DNA of 64,000 nucleotides, taken from NCBI RefSeq assembly GCF_027257935.1, contig NZ_JANZKW010000001.1:992001-1056000 (forward strand), in the 5' to 3' direction. A program made the position numbers and the translations under genes. This DNA is from Chitinimonas sp. BJYL2 (lineage in GTDB: Bacteria; Pseudomonadota; Gammaproteobacteria; Burkholderiales; Chitinimonadaceae). Below the pieces are notes generated by a model. That model had not been told where the DNA came from. It saw nothing but the letters and a program-made list of their open reading frames with translations, and did no database searches. Numbering within the stretch: the first letter of the stretch is position 1; every line of letters begins with the position of its first letter. Of this stretch, positions 7,912-12,952 are shown piece by piece.

Positions 7912-10401
7912 ATGCTCCGCCAAACGGCTCTACGCCTGCTGTTGACCCTGGCCATGCTGCTGTTGACCCTGGTCGGCAGCCACGCAGCCGATGCGCTCAC
8001 CGGGCAGGTTCAGTACCGCTGCGAGCCTGAGGGTCAGCGCCACACGCTCAGCAAGGCGGCGCCCTTCCGTATTGCGGAATCCGACTGGGCACGGGGCCGT
8101 CGCTGCGTGTTTGAGGCCCAGGTGCCCGAAGGTCATTGGCTGACCCTCTCGGCCATCGCCCAATCCCAGGTCCGCGTACTCAATGCCCCCTCCGGCCGGC
8201 CCAGTGCGGATCATGTCTGGCGCGATTCACGCAGCGCCGCCTTCGCGCCACGCGAGCAAGCGCGCGTCCAGATCGAGCTGATGGTGGTCCTCCCCATCGG
8301 CAGCGAGATCGGTATCCGCATCGAGCCACCCAGCGCGTTTCTGGCCCGCGAGAGCTTCAATAGCCAGTTCCGCAGTGCGCTGCTGATCTTGCTGAGCGCC
8401 ATGGGCATCGTCAGCTTCCTGTTTGCCCGGGCGCTCAAGGACCCGGCCGTCGGCTGGTATGCGGGACTGACGCTTGCGGTGACGCTGGTTTGGGCCTTCC
8501 TCAGCGGCTATGCCATCGAGCCCAGCGGGCTGGCACTCAGCCAACCCTTGTTGACCCTGTGGCTGCTGCTGGCGGCTTATGGTGCCGGGCTATTCTTCAG
8601 CCTCCAGTTTGCCCTCAGCTTCTGCCGCACCGATCTTTACGCACCCCGCCTCGCCAAAGTGCTGCGTTGGCTGGCTTGGGGGGTGCTGGCCTATTGCGTG
8701 CTGGGTCTGGTTCCCGGCTGGTATGGCCCCGTGGTTGCCTACTTCAATCTGCTTGCCCTGATCGCGTTTCCCGCCATGCTGCTGCCGGCCGCGGCGGCCG
8801 TGCTGTTCGGTTCCCGTCGCTCGGGTCTGATGTTCCTGATCGCCTGGTCGCCCGTGATCCTGAGCTGGACTGGCCTGCTGCTGTATTTCGTCCCCGTGAC
8901 CCCCGGTTACCCCGAGTGGCTCAAACTCATGGCACAAGGGCTGCGTGATATCGGCCTCTTGCCCGACTGGATCGCACAGGCACATACGCGCCAGGTTGCC
9001 TTGCTGGCTCAGGCTGCCATCTTTGCCATGGCACTGGCCTATCGCATTGCGCAGGGGCGCCAGGCCCGTGAGCACGAGGCCATGACGGACAAGGTCACCG
9101 GCCTCGTCAATCGCGCCTACTTCCTGCTCGAAGGGCAGCGCCAGCTGAATGCCGGCGGGCCGCAAGTCAAGACGTTGGCAGTGTTTGATATTGCCGACTT
9201 TGCCGCCATCAATGACACCCTGGGTTATGAATCCGGCGATGCCGTGCTCCGCGAAACCGCAGTGCGTCTGCGTCACCGTCTGGGCAAGGGGGCGCTGCTG
9301 GCACGGGTGGGCGGCAACGAGTTCGCAGTGTTGCTCAGCGACGGGAATGATCAGATTGCCTTGCAGATGCTGGGCAGTGCCATCAGCCGCCAGTCGCTCA
9401 ATATCGAAGACCAGACACTCGATATCCGCCTGCGCTGCGGCGCCGCGCTATACCCGCGCCACGCGCCCGATATCGATGTACTGATGCGCCGTGCCGAACT
9501 GGCGCTGCAGCACGCCAAGCAGGAAAAGCAATCGGCCTTGCTGTACCGCGATGCGCTCGAGCGCGATCAGCGATTCCAGCTGTCGCTGCTGTCGGCCTTG
9601 CGTACGGCCGTCGATGAAAGGCAGCTGCAACTGCATCTGCAGCCCAAGATCGCCATCCACAGCGGCATGGTGACGGGAGCCGAGGTCCTGCTGCGCTGGC
9701 AGCACCCCGAACTGGGTCTGGTGGCCCCGCGCGACTTCCTGCCCTTTGCCGAACGCACCGGCCTGATCGTGGAGCTGACACGCTGGCTGCTGCTCGAATC
9801 CTTCAAGCTGGCGCGCCAGTGGCAATTACAGGGGCGCGAGCTGCGTCTGTCAGTCAACCTGTCGGCCAGCGATCTGATGGACCCGAACCTGCCTGCGCAC
9901 ATCTCCGAGTTCCTGATGCACAGCCAGGCCAATGCCCGGATGCTGACGCTGGAAATCACCGAGAGTGAAATCGTCCGCGACCCCCAACTCGCGCTAGACA
10001 GCATGCAGGCCCTGCGCACCATGGGCTTTCAGCTGGCGTTGGATGATTTCGGCACAGGCAACTCCGCCTTGGCTTACCTGCAGGACATGCCCGTCAACGA
10101 GGTCAAGATTGATCGCTCCTTTGTCGCCACCGCCGGCAAGGCCGAGCGTGGCCGCGTGTTGATCGCTGCCATCGTCGCGCTGGCCAAGACCTTGGGCCTT
10201 CGCACCGTGGCCGAAGGCGTAGAGGATATTGATGACTGGCATCGTGTTGCCGCGGCCGGCTGCGACGAGATCCAGGGCTACCTGGTCTCGCGCCCCCTGC
10301 GCGTGGATCAATTCCAGGAATGGCTGGTGCTCAACCAGCCATTCCTGATTCCGGAGCCCCATGAAGAGGACTTGAAATCGTCCGGCACGATATCCATTTA
10401 G
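7912..10401 (+). CDS. Membrane-bound GGDEF/EAL protein (cyclic-di-GMP turnover)
   Basis: 829 residues. A signal/anchor (about 1-25) is followed by a periplasmic beta-rich domain (about 30-150), then seven or so hydrophobic helices (about 150-380), the 7TMR-DISM layout. Next come a GGDEF domain and an EAL domain. The GGDEF motif reads VGGNEF (about 467), an Asp-to-Asn change expected to weaken or abolish cyclase activity. The EAL domain keeps key acidic residues: GAEVLLRW (EVL for EAL), LEITESEIV, DDFGTGNSALAYL and EVKIDRSF. The likely output is c-di-GMP phosphodiesterase with a regulatory GGDEF domain. A heat-shock promoter for the next gene is embedded in its last codons. Confidence 0.9.
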   Translation: MLRQTALRLLLTLAMLLLTLVGSHAADALTGQVQYRCEPEGQRHTLSKAAPFRIAESDWARGRRCVFEAQVPEGHWLTLSAIAQSQVRVLNAPSGRPSADHVWRDSRSAAFAPREQARVQIELMVVLPIGSEIGIRIEPPSAFLARESFNSQFRSALLILLSAMGIVSFLFARALKDPAVGWYAGLTLAVTLVWAFLSGYAIEPSGLALSQPLLTLWLLLAAYGAGLFFSLQFALSFCRTDLYAPRLAKVLRWLAWGVLAYCVLGLVPGWYGPVVAYFNLLALIAFPAMLLPAAAAVLFGSRRSGLMFLIAWSPVILSWTGLLLYFVPVTPGYPEWLKLMAQGLRDIGLLPDWIAQAHTRQVALLAQAAIFAMALAYRIAQGRQAREHEAMTDKVTGLVNRAYFLLEGQRQLNAGGPQVKTLAVFDIADFAAINDTLGYESGDAVLRETAVRLRHRLGKGALLARVGGNEFAVLLSDGNDQIALQMLGSAISRQSLNIEDQTLDIRLRCGAALYPRHAPDIDVLMRRAELALQHAKQEKQSALLYRDALERDQRFQLSLLSALRTAVDERQLQLHLQPKIAIHSGMVTGAEVLLRWQHPELGLVAPRDFLPFAERTGLIVELTRWLLLESFKLARQWQLQGRELRLSVNLSASDLMDPNLPAHISEFLMHSQANARMLTLEITESEIVRDPQLALDSMQALRTMGFQLALDDFGTGNSALAYLQDMPVNEVKIDRSFVATAGKAERGRVLIAAIVALAKTLGLRTVAEGVEDIDDWHRVAAAGCDEIQGYLVSRPLRVDQFQEWLVLNQPFLIPEPHEEDLKSSGTISI
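10371..10400 (+). promoter_or_regulatory. Sigma-32 (heat-shock) promoter of hsp20
   Basis: CTTGAAA, a 14-nt spacer and ATCCATTTA match the sigma-32 consensus CTTGAAA / CCCCATnTA at 7 of 7 and 7 of 9 positions with an accepted spacer. The element overlaps the end of the GGDEF/EAL gene and lies 65 bp before the Hsp20 start codon. Predicted transcription start is near 10406. Confidence 0.75.
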
Positions 10402-10460
10402 GTTCACGAGACGGCAGGATCGTCCTGCCGTTGCTTACCCGTGAACCAACTGGAGGACGA
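10402..10460 (+). promoter_or_regulatory. Structured 5' leader of hsp20, candidate RNA thermometer
   Basis: Outer arms GTTCACG (10402-10408) and CGTGAAC (10440-10446) enclose a perfect 9-bp hairpin, ACGGCAGGA/TCCTGCCGT (10411-10431). TCGTCCT (10420-10426) can alternatively pair with AGGACGA (10454-10460), which covers the Shine-Dalgarno. A TTGCT (10431-10435), the short motif seen in ROSE thermometers, also occurs. Small heat-shock genes often carry such thermosensors. Confidence 0.45.
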
Positions 10461-10464
10461 AATC

Positions 10465-10917
10465 ATGCGCACTTACGACTTCACCCCCCTTTACCGGTCC
10501 GCGATCGGCTTTGACCGCCTCGCTCGTCTGGCCGACGATGCCTTGCGTGTGGATACCCAACCGAGCTACCCGCCCTACGATATCGAACTGGTCGAGGAAA
10601 ACGCCTACCGTATCCGCATGGTGGTAGCCGGTTTTGAACAAAACGAACTGGATATCGAAACAGAACGCGATACCCTGAAAATCAGCGGCCACAAGGCAAC
10701 GGCAACGCAAGGCAACTATCTGCACCGCGGCATCAGCACGCAGGATTTCGAACGCCGCTTCCAGCTCGCCGAGCATGTAAAGGTCGTATCGGCCGGCCTG
10801 CAGAATGGCATCCTGACCGTCGACCTGATCCGCGAGATTCCCGAAGCCATGCGCCCGCGCAAGGTGCTGATCAATAGCGGCGACAACGTCCAGCTGCTGG
10901 AGCGCCGCGCAGCGTGA
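10465..10917 (+). CDS. Small heat-shock protein, Hsp20/IbpA type
   Basis: ATP-independent holdase that binds unfolding proteins and hands them to DnaK/ClpB. 150 residues. The N-terminus MRTYDFTPLYRSAIGFDRL matches IbpA-like class A proteins. The alpha-crystallin domain runs from about 35 to 125 (YPPYDIELVEENAYRIRMVV through GLQNGILTVDL), with a short C-terminal tail containing a RKVLI-type I-x-I-like motif. The ATG at 10465 follows GGAGG by 8 nt and fits the family start; the GTG at 10441 lies inside the hairpin leader. It is followed by a strong terminator. Confidence 0.95.
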   Translation: MRTYDFTPLYRSAIGFDRLARLADDALRVDTQPSYPPYDIELVEENAYRIRMVVAGFEQNELDIETERDTLKISGHKATATQGNYLHRGISTQDFERRFQLAEHVKVVSAGLQNGILTVDLIREIPEAMRPRKVLINSGDNVQLLERRAA

Positions 10918-10934: not shown

Positions 10935-10970
10935 AACAAAAAGGCCGGCAATCATGCCGGCCTTTTTGTT
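10935..10970. terminator. Bidirectional intrinsic terminator
   Basis: A perfect 15-bp stem (AACAAAAAGGCCGGC and its complement) with a 6-nt loop AATCAT. The A and T runs make it work for both hsp20 and the convergent helicase gene. Confidence 0.92.
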
Positions 10971-10981: not shown

Positions 10982-12952
10982 TTAACGCCGACTGCGAAAA
11001 CCGCCGCTGCGGCCACCGCGCGGTTTTTCATGGCGCTCGCGCTGATCGCGGCGTTTCTGGTTGGTCATCGCCAGCTGGCGATCAATCTCTTCAGACGTAC
11101 TCTGCATGAGGCCCTGCGCTTTCTCCTGATCCGGGAACGTTTCCGCCATCCGGTATGAGAGCCAGGCATAGGCTGCATAGAGCTTGCAGCTGTCTTCCAG
11201 TGATTGCAGCGCAAACCGGCCGGTCTGCACACCCACCGGGTTCAAAGGCACGGTGCGCTTTTCGGCGCGCGCGCCGGCCCACTCCTGCAAGGCACGCTCC
11301 AGCAACGGCACCTTGGTCGAAATCGGGCACAGGCTGAAGGTAAAGCGATCGCCCAGACTCAGGTTCAGCATGTCCAGCCAGCGCGCCTTCTCGATCTGTT
11401 CACTGAGGTTGGCCGGCAGAAAGAACTCGTCATGCAGGTCGATATGCTTGGCAAACAGCTCCAGCAGCTTGTGCAACTTGGTCTGCCCGCTGGCTTCGCT
11501 GATCTGCTTGAGGTATTCGAGATTGGGTGCCACAAAGAAGCCCGTGTCCGGCAAGGGTTCCAGCTTCTGTCGCAGCAGGGCGGCAATCGTTTTGTGCGTC
11601 TGGGCATCGATACCGGCTACATGGCCGATCTCATGCTCGCCAAAGCGCCCAGCGCGGCCGGCAATCTGACGTGCCAGCGCGGCGTCGATGATGCCTTCGC
11701 TCTCGCCGTCGAACTTGCGTGCGGTCGTGAATACGATACGCCGCGCCGGTGTGTTCAGTCCCATGCCTATCGCATCGGTTGCCACCACGATCTGGGTTTC
11801 GCCACTGAGAAAGCGATCCGCCTGCGCTTGGCGTACCTCGGGCGAAAGGTTGCCGTAAATGGCCGACACCGGAAAACCGCGCGTCATTACCTGGTCGCGC
11901 CAGTTCAGCACCTCGCGGCGCGAGAACGCGATCAGCACATCACCTGCACGAAGATTGGCCAGCGAGCCCAATGGCTGCTTGTCCATCTCCAGCGGGGTCT
12001 TCCGCTTGAGCGTGCGGATCTCCAGCGTTCCGCCCACGCGGCGGATCAACGATTCAATCGCCTCCTGCGCCTCAGGTGCGCCAAGCAGATATACCGTCTC
12101 GGCTGGCACACCGCACACCGCCGCCGTCCACGCGGCGCCGCGATCCGGGTCATCCAGCAGCTGGATTTCGTCGATGATGGCCACTTCAAGCGGCCGGTTC
12201 GGATTGAGCATCTCCACCGTGCTGGCCGTATGCGTGGCTTCGGGGTGGATCTTGCGCTGCTCCCCCGTGATCAGGCTGACCGCCACACCGGCATCGAGCA
12301 AGCGGGTGTAGTTTTCAAGCGCCAGCAAACGCAGCGGCGCAAGATAAACACCGGTTTTGGCGCGGCTCAAATGTTCCATGGCCGCGTGCGTCTTGCCCGA
12401 ATTGGTCGGCCCCAGAATCGCAATGAAGTGACGCTTCATACTCTGCGCCAGCTTGAATGATTCGGGATACAGCGACAGGTTCACCGCGTCGCGCGCCAGA
12501 TCTGTCTGCTTGCTGGCCTGCTTCTTGGCCTTGGCGACTTCCACCCGGTCCAGCGCCACCTGGCAACGGAACCGTGCCAGCTCGTACTTGGCCACCAGAG
12601 CATGCAAGGAGCTGGATGGATCTGCGCCCAACTCCTGCGTACGCCGGAGAACTTCATCCACGCACTTGCGCAACTGCGCTTCAAGCCGCGCCCGTGCATC
12701 ATCATTCCAGCGCGCCTGTACCATGCCGTAACGCTCGGCCGCATCGAGCTTGCGCCACTTGCCGGTCTTGCCCAGAAAACCGTCGTCCGGCACCAGATGG
12801 TACGGAATGCGCTGCTCGCCCACTTGCAGCTCGCCATGGACCGATACCGCGTAACTGCCGTCCACCAGCACCAGTGCTGCGCCGTGCTTGTCGAGGTAAT
12901 GCGCCACCAGATCGGTGTCGAGCATATCCAGCAGTTTGGGGAGTTCGTTCAT
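10982..12952 (-). CDS. SUV3-like ATP-dependent RNA helicase
   Basis: 656 residues, related to the mitochondrial SUPV3L1 helicases of the Ski2-like group, which have homologues in some proteobacteria. After a helical N-terminal part (1-170) come motif I GPTNSGKT (181-188), motif II DEIQLLDD (261-268), a YLLGAPEA segment, RecA2 with VVATDAIGMGLNTPA, and motif VI QIAGRAGRFG. The C-terminal SUV3 domain is followed by an Arg/Gly-rich basic tail (RGGRSGGFRSRR) likely to bind RNA. RNA decay or ribosome-related unwinding is probable; the bacterial role is poorly known. It is a single gene convergent with hsp20. Confidence 0.88.
   Translation of the reverse strand: MNELPKLLDMLDTDLVAHYLDKHGAALVLVDGSYAVSVHGELQVGEQRIPYHLVPDDGFLGKTGKWRKLDAAERYGMVQARWNDDARARLEAQLRKCVDEVLRRTQELGADPSSSLHALVAKYELARFRCQVALDRVEVAKAKKQASKQTDLARDAVNLSLYPESFKLAQSMKRHFIAILGPTNSGKTHAAMEHLSRAKTGVYLAPLRLLALENYTRLLDAGVAVSLITGEQRKIHPEATHTASTVEMLNPNRPLEVAIIDEIQLLDDPDRGAAWTAAVCGVPAETVYLLGAPEAQEAIESLIRRVGGTLEIRTLKRKTPLEMDKQPLGSLANLRAGDVLIAFSRREVLNWRDQVMTRGFPVSAIYGNLSPEVRQAQADRFLSGETQIVVATDAIGMGLNTPARRIVFTTARKFDGESEGIIDAALARQIAGRAGRFGEHEIGHVAGIDAQTHKTIAALLRQKLEPLPDTGFFVAPNLEYLKQISEASGQTKLHKLLELFAKHIDLHDEFFLPANLSEQIEKARWLDMLNLSLGDRFTFSLCPISTKVPLLERALQEWAGARAEKRTVPLNPVGVQTGRFALQSLEDSCKLYAAYAWLSYRMAETFPDQEKAQGLMQSTSEEIDRQLAMTNQKRRDQRERHEKPRGGRSGGFRSRR

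Follow-up and report, generated by a model that had tools for sequence, protein, structure and literature searches.

A possibly rewritten ROSE-like leader between a sigma-32-type promoter and hsp20 in Chitinimonas sp. BJYL2

The window is a stretch of 64,000 nucleotides of Chitinimonas sp. BJYL2 (contig NZ_JANZKW010000001.1, positions 992,001 to 1,056,000, forward strand), and the subject of this report is the leader that precedes its small heat-shock protein gene, hsp20, the only HSP20 match found in the genome. The reading we favour, at about an even chance, is that this leader is a lineage-specific, rewritten form of a short ROSE-like RNA thermometer placed under a sigma-32-type promoter, with an inferred thermosensing role. 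The promoter would drive a transcript of hsp20 and a leader of about 58 to 60 nt, and the leader would be a rewritten form of the two-hairpin ROSE-like thermometer found in this position in related species. Here a stable GC-rich hairpin (hairpin I) would be followed directly by a weak hairpin (hairpin II) covering the Shine-Dalgarno (SD) sequence at low temperature, and hairpin II would melt on warming, so that transcription and translation would both answer heat. Rather than belonging to a new kind, the leader seems to be a switch of known type with an unusual form, or a switch that has been lost; thermosensing retained in some form is given a little better than even chances, and its loss about one in three. 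The features kept in the window are the distance of the promoter, the length of the leader, a GC-rich hairpin I, the UUGCU motif, an SD that can be covered and the 7-nt distance between SD and ATG. Coordinates are given in Table 1.

The sigma-32 promoter is supported by its sequence and was taken as real. Compared with the pattern CTTGAA-N(13-18)-CNCCATAT, whose -10 consensus and spacing were taken from passages of PMC3669281, the window site matches at 6 of 6 positions of the -35 element, has a spacer of 15 nt and matches at only 5 of 7 positions of the -10 element, and it falls within the pattern as defined. The CTTGAA lies at -94 from the ATG of hsp20 (10465, read directly), and in 24 of 25 relatives the same hexamer lies at -93 to -100, the 25th having ATTGAA at -97. 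The genome also encodes rpoH (TIGR02392, 399.8 bits against a cut-off of 323.1). The initial annotation had placed a heat-shock promoter before hsp20, embedded in the end of a GGDEF/EAL gene, and both statements hold, the promoter occupying 10371-10399 and the GGDEF/EAL frame ending with TAG at 10399-10401. From these elements we infer a transcript start near 10405-10407, with a leader of the length given above. A pattern scan of the genome allowed 12 to 16 bases before CCATNT; the window site has 17 on that definition, and the six places returned by the scan therefore say nothing about it.

Relatives of hsp20 were found in 7 of 7 genomes of the genus, the window's included, and in 29 of 399 genomes of the order at E values up to 1e-30, and 80 of 98 hsp20 loci were kept from a collection of named genomes. 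An alignment of 25 leaders (A1) was made from 21 of the 30 rows of the order search and the named loci L002-L005. The leaders left out were that of the window (L082), a near copy of L084 (L085), one whose contig starts inside the leader (L089), three with a longer spacer between the hairpins (L092, L096, L111), two more distant ones (L109, L110) and one that was not located (L108). The relatives from the order are presumably betaproteobacteria, an assignment made through L002-L005 and extended to the others. In A1, hairpin I has the form CGGGU(G)CUC..GAGGCCCG and hairpin II the form AUAUC(G)CUU..AGGAUAU, each with one unpaired G. Pairing is present in 96.2 % of 424 cells (87.9 in shuffles, 34-49 in slid controls), and 7 of the 17 pairs are changed on both sides (as many in 1 of 500 shuffles), in 42 cells (0 of 500); six of these seven pairs belong to hairpin I, and 4 of the 8 pairs of hairpin II never vary. 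Judged from these counts, the two-hairpin plan of the relatives is real and covarying. The canonical hairpin I (L083-L107 and L002-L005 in A1) repeats the unpaired-G motif of hairpin II (UGCUC/GAGG), in the manner of two tandem ROSE-like motifs. The three leaders with longer spacers between hairpins I and II come from one genus (two genomes), and the spacer of L096 contains a repeated ATTAACC.

The motif U(U/C)GCU stands before the SD in 32 of 33 relatives from the order or the named betaproteobacterial loci, in 75 of 76 other hsp20 leaders and in the window leader, and it was found in 223 of 5450 shuffles of single bases in which the last 16 nt were fixed. In the two leaders counted as lacking it (L096, L046) the motif is present by eye, with another SD or offset. 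Passages of PMC11342760 name the bulged G and U(U/C)GCU as hallmarks of ROSE, and also describe ROSE-like elements of ABC-transporter genes, betaproteobacteria included. That the leaders of the relatives are ROSE-type thermometers is well supported; for the window, where the initial annotation had suggested such an element, the likeness is one of architecture.

Direct reading of the window leader bears out the 9-bp hairpin, the TTGCT motif and the pairing of TCGTCCT (10420-10426) with AGGACGA (10454-10460) that had been noted before hsp20. Two features had been overlooked: a perfect stem of 8 bp (10401-10408/10440-10447), and a continuation of the SD pairing, in which 14 of 17 positions (82 %) are paired between 10420-10436 and 10444-10460. 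The leader lies directly 5' of a PF00011 gene and carries U(U/C)GCU upstream of its SD, and its AGGA-to-ATG distance of 7 nt compares with 7-8 nt in 21 of 25 relatives. According to passages of PMC3669281, the short ROSE-like elements of Pseudomonas ibpA, which have been studied by experiment, combine a sigma-32 promoter, a leader of 61-62 nt, a stable hairpin I and a melting hairpin II, and the leaders of the relatives follow this layout. The window resembles them in its promoter, its leader of about 60 nt, its GC-rich hairpin I, its U(U/C)GCU motif, an SD that a 3' hairpin can cover and a small heat-shock gene downstream. It differs in that UUGCU overlaps hairpin I, in the 16-nt spacing between motif and SD, and in a minimum-energy hairpin II whose pairing is not the canonical one. 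With ROSE (RF00435), in which a U(U/C)GCU hairpin covers the SD of a small heat-shock gene (passages of PMC3669281), it has in common a small heat-shock gene whose SD such a hairpin might cover, whereas that model has 94 positions and its classical members three to four hairpins. With its betaproteobacterial relatives it shares the promoter distance, leader length, order of the two hairpins, SD-ATG distance and motif; the relatives share hairpins like CGGGUGCUC..GAGGCCCG and AUAUCGCUU..AGGAUAU, and the window has neither. A ROSE-like plan is thus supported for the window as a likeness and not as membership, since the covariance and sequence comparisons described below fail.

Table 1 Features of the hsp20 leader region (window coordinates)
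Feature	Coordinates	Strand	Remarks
hsp20, small heat-shock protein gene	10465..10917	+	PF00011, 67 bits against a cut-off of 20.8
GGDEF/EAL gene	7912..10401	+	Pfam 7TMR-DISM_7TM, GGDEF, EAL; last codons run through the hsp20 promoter
Sigma-32-type -35 element CTTGAA	10371..10376	+	Direct reading; nearly the same distance to ATG in 24/25 relatives
-10-like element ATCCATTT	10392..10399	+	5/7 specified positions of CNCCATAT
8-bp perfect stem, 5' arm GGTTCACG	10401..10408	+	Lies mostly 5' of the predicted start; only longer transcripts contain all of it
8-bp perfect stem, 3' arm CGTGAACC	10440..10447	+	Between UUGCU and SD
Hairpin I, 9 bp, GC-rich, 3-nt loop	10411..10431	+	Arms ACGGCAGGA (10411-10419) and TCCTGCCGT (10423-10431)
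Long imperfect SD hairpin, 5' arm	10420..10436	+	Pairs with 10444-10460; exclusive with hairpin I; contains TCGTCCT
UUGCU motif, ROSE type	10431..10435	+	G10433 unpaired; overlaps hairpin I
Hairpin II, predicted minimum-energy fold of the leader alone at 25 °C	10434..10456	+	CUUACC pairs with GGAGG
Shine-Dalgarno GGAGGA	10452..10457	+	Direct reading

Several results weigh against the rewritten thermometer, among them those of a covariance model (R1) built from the leaders of A1 and run over 59 loci. R1 matched 27 leaders from the order or L002-L005 at 46.8-66.5 bits, including two not used in building it (L085, 61.5 bits; L108, 62.2 bits), and the six other species of the genus all carry the canonical leader (L083-L088, 57.1-64.5 bits). 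At 12 of 25 alphaproteobacterial, gammaproteobacterial or unassigned loci it gave a match of 12.0-29.1 bits whose end fell on the hsp20 start or no more than 6 nt from it. Six relatives from the order with longer or more distant leaders scored 13.2-31.4 bits (L092 31.4, L111 22.3, L089 18.1 as a partial leader, L110 13.3, L096 13.2) or, in the case of L109, a distant relative having the motif, gave no match up to E 10. Likewise, no R1 match at the window leader came up to E 10 from searches of the whole window, its own genome and the 59 loci, and when scored in place the leader reached 2.0 bits (E 0.12 for 101 bases), which sets it outside the family by this model. The window is the only exception to the canonical leader in its genus, and not the only miss of R1 in the order. 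Nor was the window leader similar to the 25 relatives beyond its shuffles (which did as well in 98 of 500 cases by the mean and in 111 of 500 by the best), while the first eight relatives scored far above their shuffles in the same comparison. The spacing of 16 nt between motif and SD lies outside the 3-11 nt of the 107 leaders measured, and in A1 itself the count of further pair types was not above shuffles (470 of 500). R1, which is weak here, nevertheless aligns the window leader in the canonical register, and 7 of the 8 pairs of hairpin II are then standard. In that register two window pairs differ on both sides from the commonest pairs of the relatives (A-U to G-C and U-A to C-G); this is our own reading of the register and suggestive only, chance being estimated to yield as much in about one case in five.

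The predicted folds bear on the same question, as there are three pairings by which the SD could be covered, namely (a) the ROSE register, (b) hairpin I with a small hairpin II, and (c) the long SD hairpin. In the ROSE register CGUU(G)CUU (10429-10436) is able to pair with GAGGACG (10453-10459), giving seven pairs around the bulged G10433, but this is not the predicted minimum; it takes three pairs from hairpin I and reaches -10.5 kcal/mol at 37 °C against -15.5 kcal/mol for the full hairpin I alone, which adds to the objections. Pairing (b), the complete hairpin I with an SD-covering hairpin II, has the lowest predicted energy when the leader is folded by itself at 25 °C; its hairpin II is worth -7.1 kcal/mol at 20 °C, weakening to -3.7 at 37 °C and -0.6 at 52 °C. 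We prefer (b) as the pairing that would act on the SD, because hairpin I, presumably the first to form, stays intact in it, and because it reproduces the stable-then-melting order of the known short elements.

Pairing (c) underlies a different proposal, a lengthened version of the switch put forward in the initial annotation, in which the leader is a two-state switch whose 14-pair hairpin covers the SD below about 37 °C and gives way above it to hairpin I, freeing the SD. We consider this switch quite unlikely. The energies are ambiguous. The bare folds do cross at 37 °C, where the two are equal (-15.5 and -15.4 kcal/mol), with the SD hairpin at -22.1 against -19.7 kcal/mol for hairpin I at 20 °C and at -11.3 against -13.0 at 47 °C, and a Watson-Crick pairing of 7 bp to the SD segment arose in only 20 of 2000 shuffles. 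Hairpin I, however, would be expected to form first during transcription and is favoured in each computed ensemble; the margin, which depends on transcript ends and temperature, is 0.5 to 6.9 kcal/mol when the transcript begins at 10406 and 7.0 to 12.5 kcal/mol when it begins at 10401. The two folds put forward in the initial annotation are geometrically exclusive, as stated there, but the switch pairing is not kept: conservation in related genomes had been offered as its test, and in none of the 25 relatives can hairpin I form an uninterrupted run of at least six Watson-Crick pairs with the SD segment (3 of 25 reach 7 when G-U is allowed), the two-hairpin plan being kept instead.

In favour of the rewritten thermometer, the SD is predicted to be exposed to 0.29 at 25 °C and to 0.48 at 47 °C when the leader is folded by itself; this increase lies in the range of the relatives (median 0.11, upper quartile 0.21), although the window leader is more open at the outset. 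Further objections arise here. Exposure barely rises when 16 or 26 nt of coding sequence are folded with the leader and is flat with 36 nt (0.33 to 0.34), below the relatives' lower quartile of 0.05, and at 25 °C the window SD is more open than in three quarters of them. Covering GGAGG costs nothing, which is also the case in 200 of 1000 shuffles; for AGGA the cost is 4.0 kcal/mol, a figure matched by 433 of 1000. Some canonical relatives (L084, L091, L105) are likewise flat in predicted exposure, and such predictions are weak for ROSE elements because their SD pairing uses non-canonical pairs, according to passages of PMC3669281.

The main rival explanation, which we hold to be unlikely though the strongest of the alternatives, is that thermosensing has been lost, the canonical leader having been replaced and sigma-32 alone giving heat control; the hairpin of 9-10 bp would then merely protect the 5' end of the mRNA, and the SD would be largely open. 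The leader's unlikeness to its relatives in sequence, the silence of R1, the open SD at 25 °C with its flat course in the presence of 36 nt of coding sequence, and the dominance of hairpin I in the ensembles all speak for loss. Against it stands the combination of leader length, hairpin I, UUGCU and a coverable SD, and hairpins of such quality are rare: a UYGCU hairpin that has a bulged G and covers the SD with 7 or more pairs was found in 65 of 5000 shuffles and at 0 of the 54 mechanical gene starts of the window, where perfect hairpins of at least 9 bp occurred at 2 of 54. Gene starts with less than 60 nt upstream were skipped in this count, and an antisense frame of hsp20 was included, displacing hsp20. 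Only the version with the motif is unusual, as a bulged-G hairpin of the same size without UYGCU appeared in 971 of 5000 shuffles.

The helix and motif controls on the window leader used dinucleotide shuffles, and the helices were examined over 10400-10464. Of 2000 shuffles, 10 had a perfect helix of at least 9 bp and none combined helices of 9 bp and 8 bp, so chance does not readily yield both. The fold of 10402-10480 is stabler than its shuffles (z -2.70); for the likelier transcript, 10407-10480, no such difference is clear (z only -1.33). A further explanation would treat the pairings as chance products of GC-rich sequence at a rearrangement joint, with no role. It draws on the unexceptional fold of the likelier transcript and on the GGDEF/EAL neighbour, whose close orthologue (50-56 % identity) is present in 4 of the 6 other genomes of the genus and in all 4 of these lies on a separate contig from hsp20. 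The joint occurrence of the two helices and the stability of the longer fold tell against this explanation, which we regard as very unlikely.

The thermometer setting might also depend on the transcription start site, an idea to which we give still less weight. Transcripts from about 10406 could not fully form the 8-bp stem, leaving an SD that could be covered and freed by heat, while read-through transcripts from the GGDEF/EAL gene would form the stem, which would take up the loop of hairpin II and leave the SD free; if so, the read-through mRNA would be translated at any temperature. The exact pattern of stem plus hairpin was found in 3 of 126 loci, all three from the window's own genome, and a search of that genome for extra copies of the leader gave, besides the leader itself, one 19-base stretch at E 2.8.

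A conserved motif and fold are the main means by which ROSE-like thermometers are recognised. One species that seems to keep the plan while losing the sequence its congeners share would offer a clean test of sequence against shape; alternatively, the window leader would be a clean case of loss.

Covariance searches with Rfam were made on the window and on related loci. At the gathering score the whole window gave one tRNA only, and the ROSE search called for by the initial annotation returned no match at the leader. This silence means little, because the Rfam 15 ROSE models also gave no match in the betaproteobacterial leaders searched, typical ones included. These hsp20 leaders form a coherent two-hairpin family that Rfam 15 leaves undetected in the loci given. 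No match was obtained on 14 loci at the gathering score, and 19 loci at E up to 10 gave 14 weak matches, none to a ROSE family. Among 12 alpha- or gammaproteobacterial loci, ROSE was matched in three (L039, L060, L072; 71.8-82 bits), which are three of the four Bradyrhizobium loci. No report of betaproteobacterial hsp20 leaders as a family was found in the open-access literature searched, subscription papers lying mostly outside that search. A plasmid search with hsp20 returned 135 records, of which the 20 listed are rhizobial or other alphaproteobacterial sequences at 66-74 % identity, and these were not used.

The product of hsp20 is labelled IbpA type by likeness. The overlap of its promoter with the GGDEF/EAL gene is a local arrangement of the window's lineage and not a conserved feature, because the orthologues of that gene sit on another contig than hsp20. 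The C-terminus of the GGDEF/EAL product is 10 residues longer than those of the orthologues L129 and L130, 8 longer than that of L128 and about equal to that of L131; an extension across the promoter is possible on this comparison, and not certain, because the protein exceeds L128-L130 and is about as long as L131. Within the EAL coding region, just 5' of the promoter, lies a perfect 14-bp inverted repeat with a 5-nt loop (10315-10347), which has a 5-bp core in the orthologues L129 and L130 by eye and no T run after it. Two Rfam matches at E up to 10 in 10250-10650, far below threshold, overlap this repeat and were taken as chance. Downstream of hsp20, between it and a convergent minus-strand gene (10982-12952), a strong hairpin flanked by A and T runs (10935-10970) is probably a terminator for both strands.

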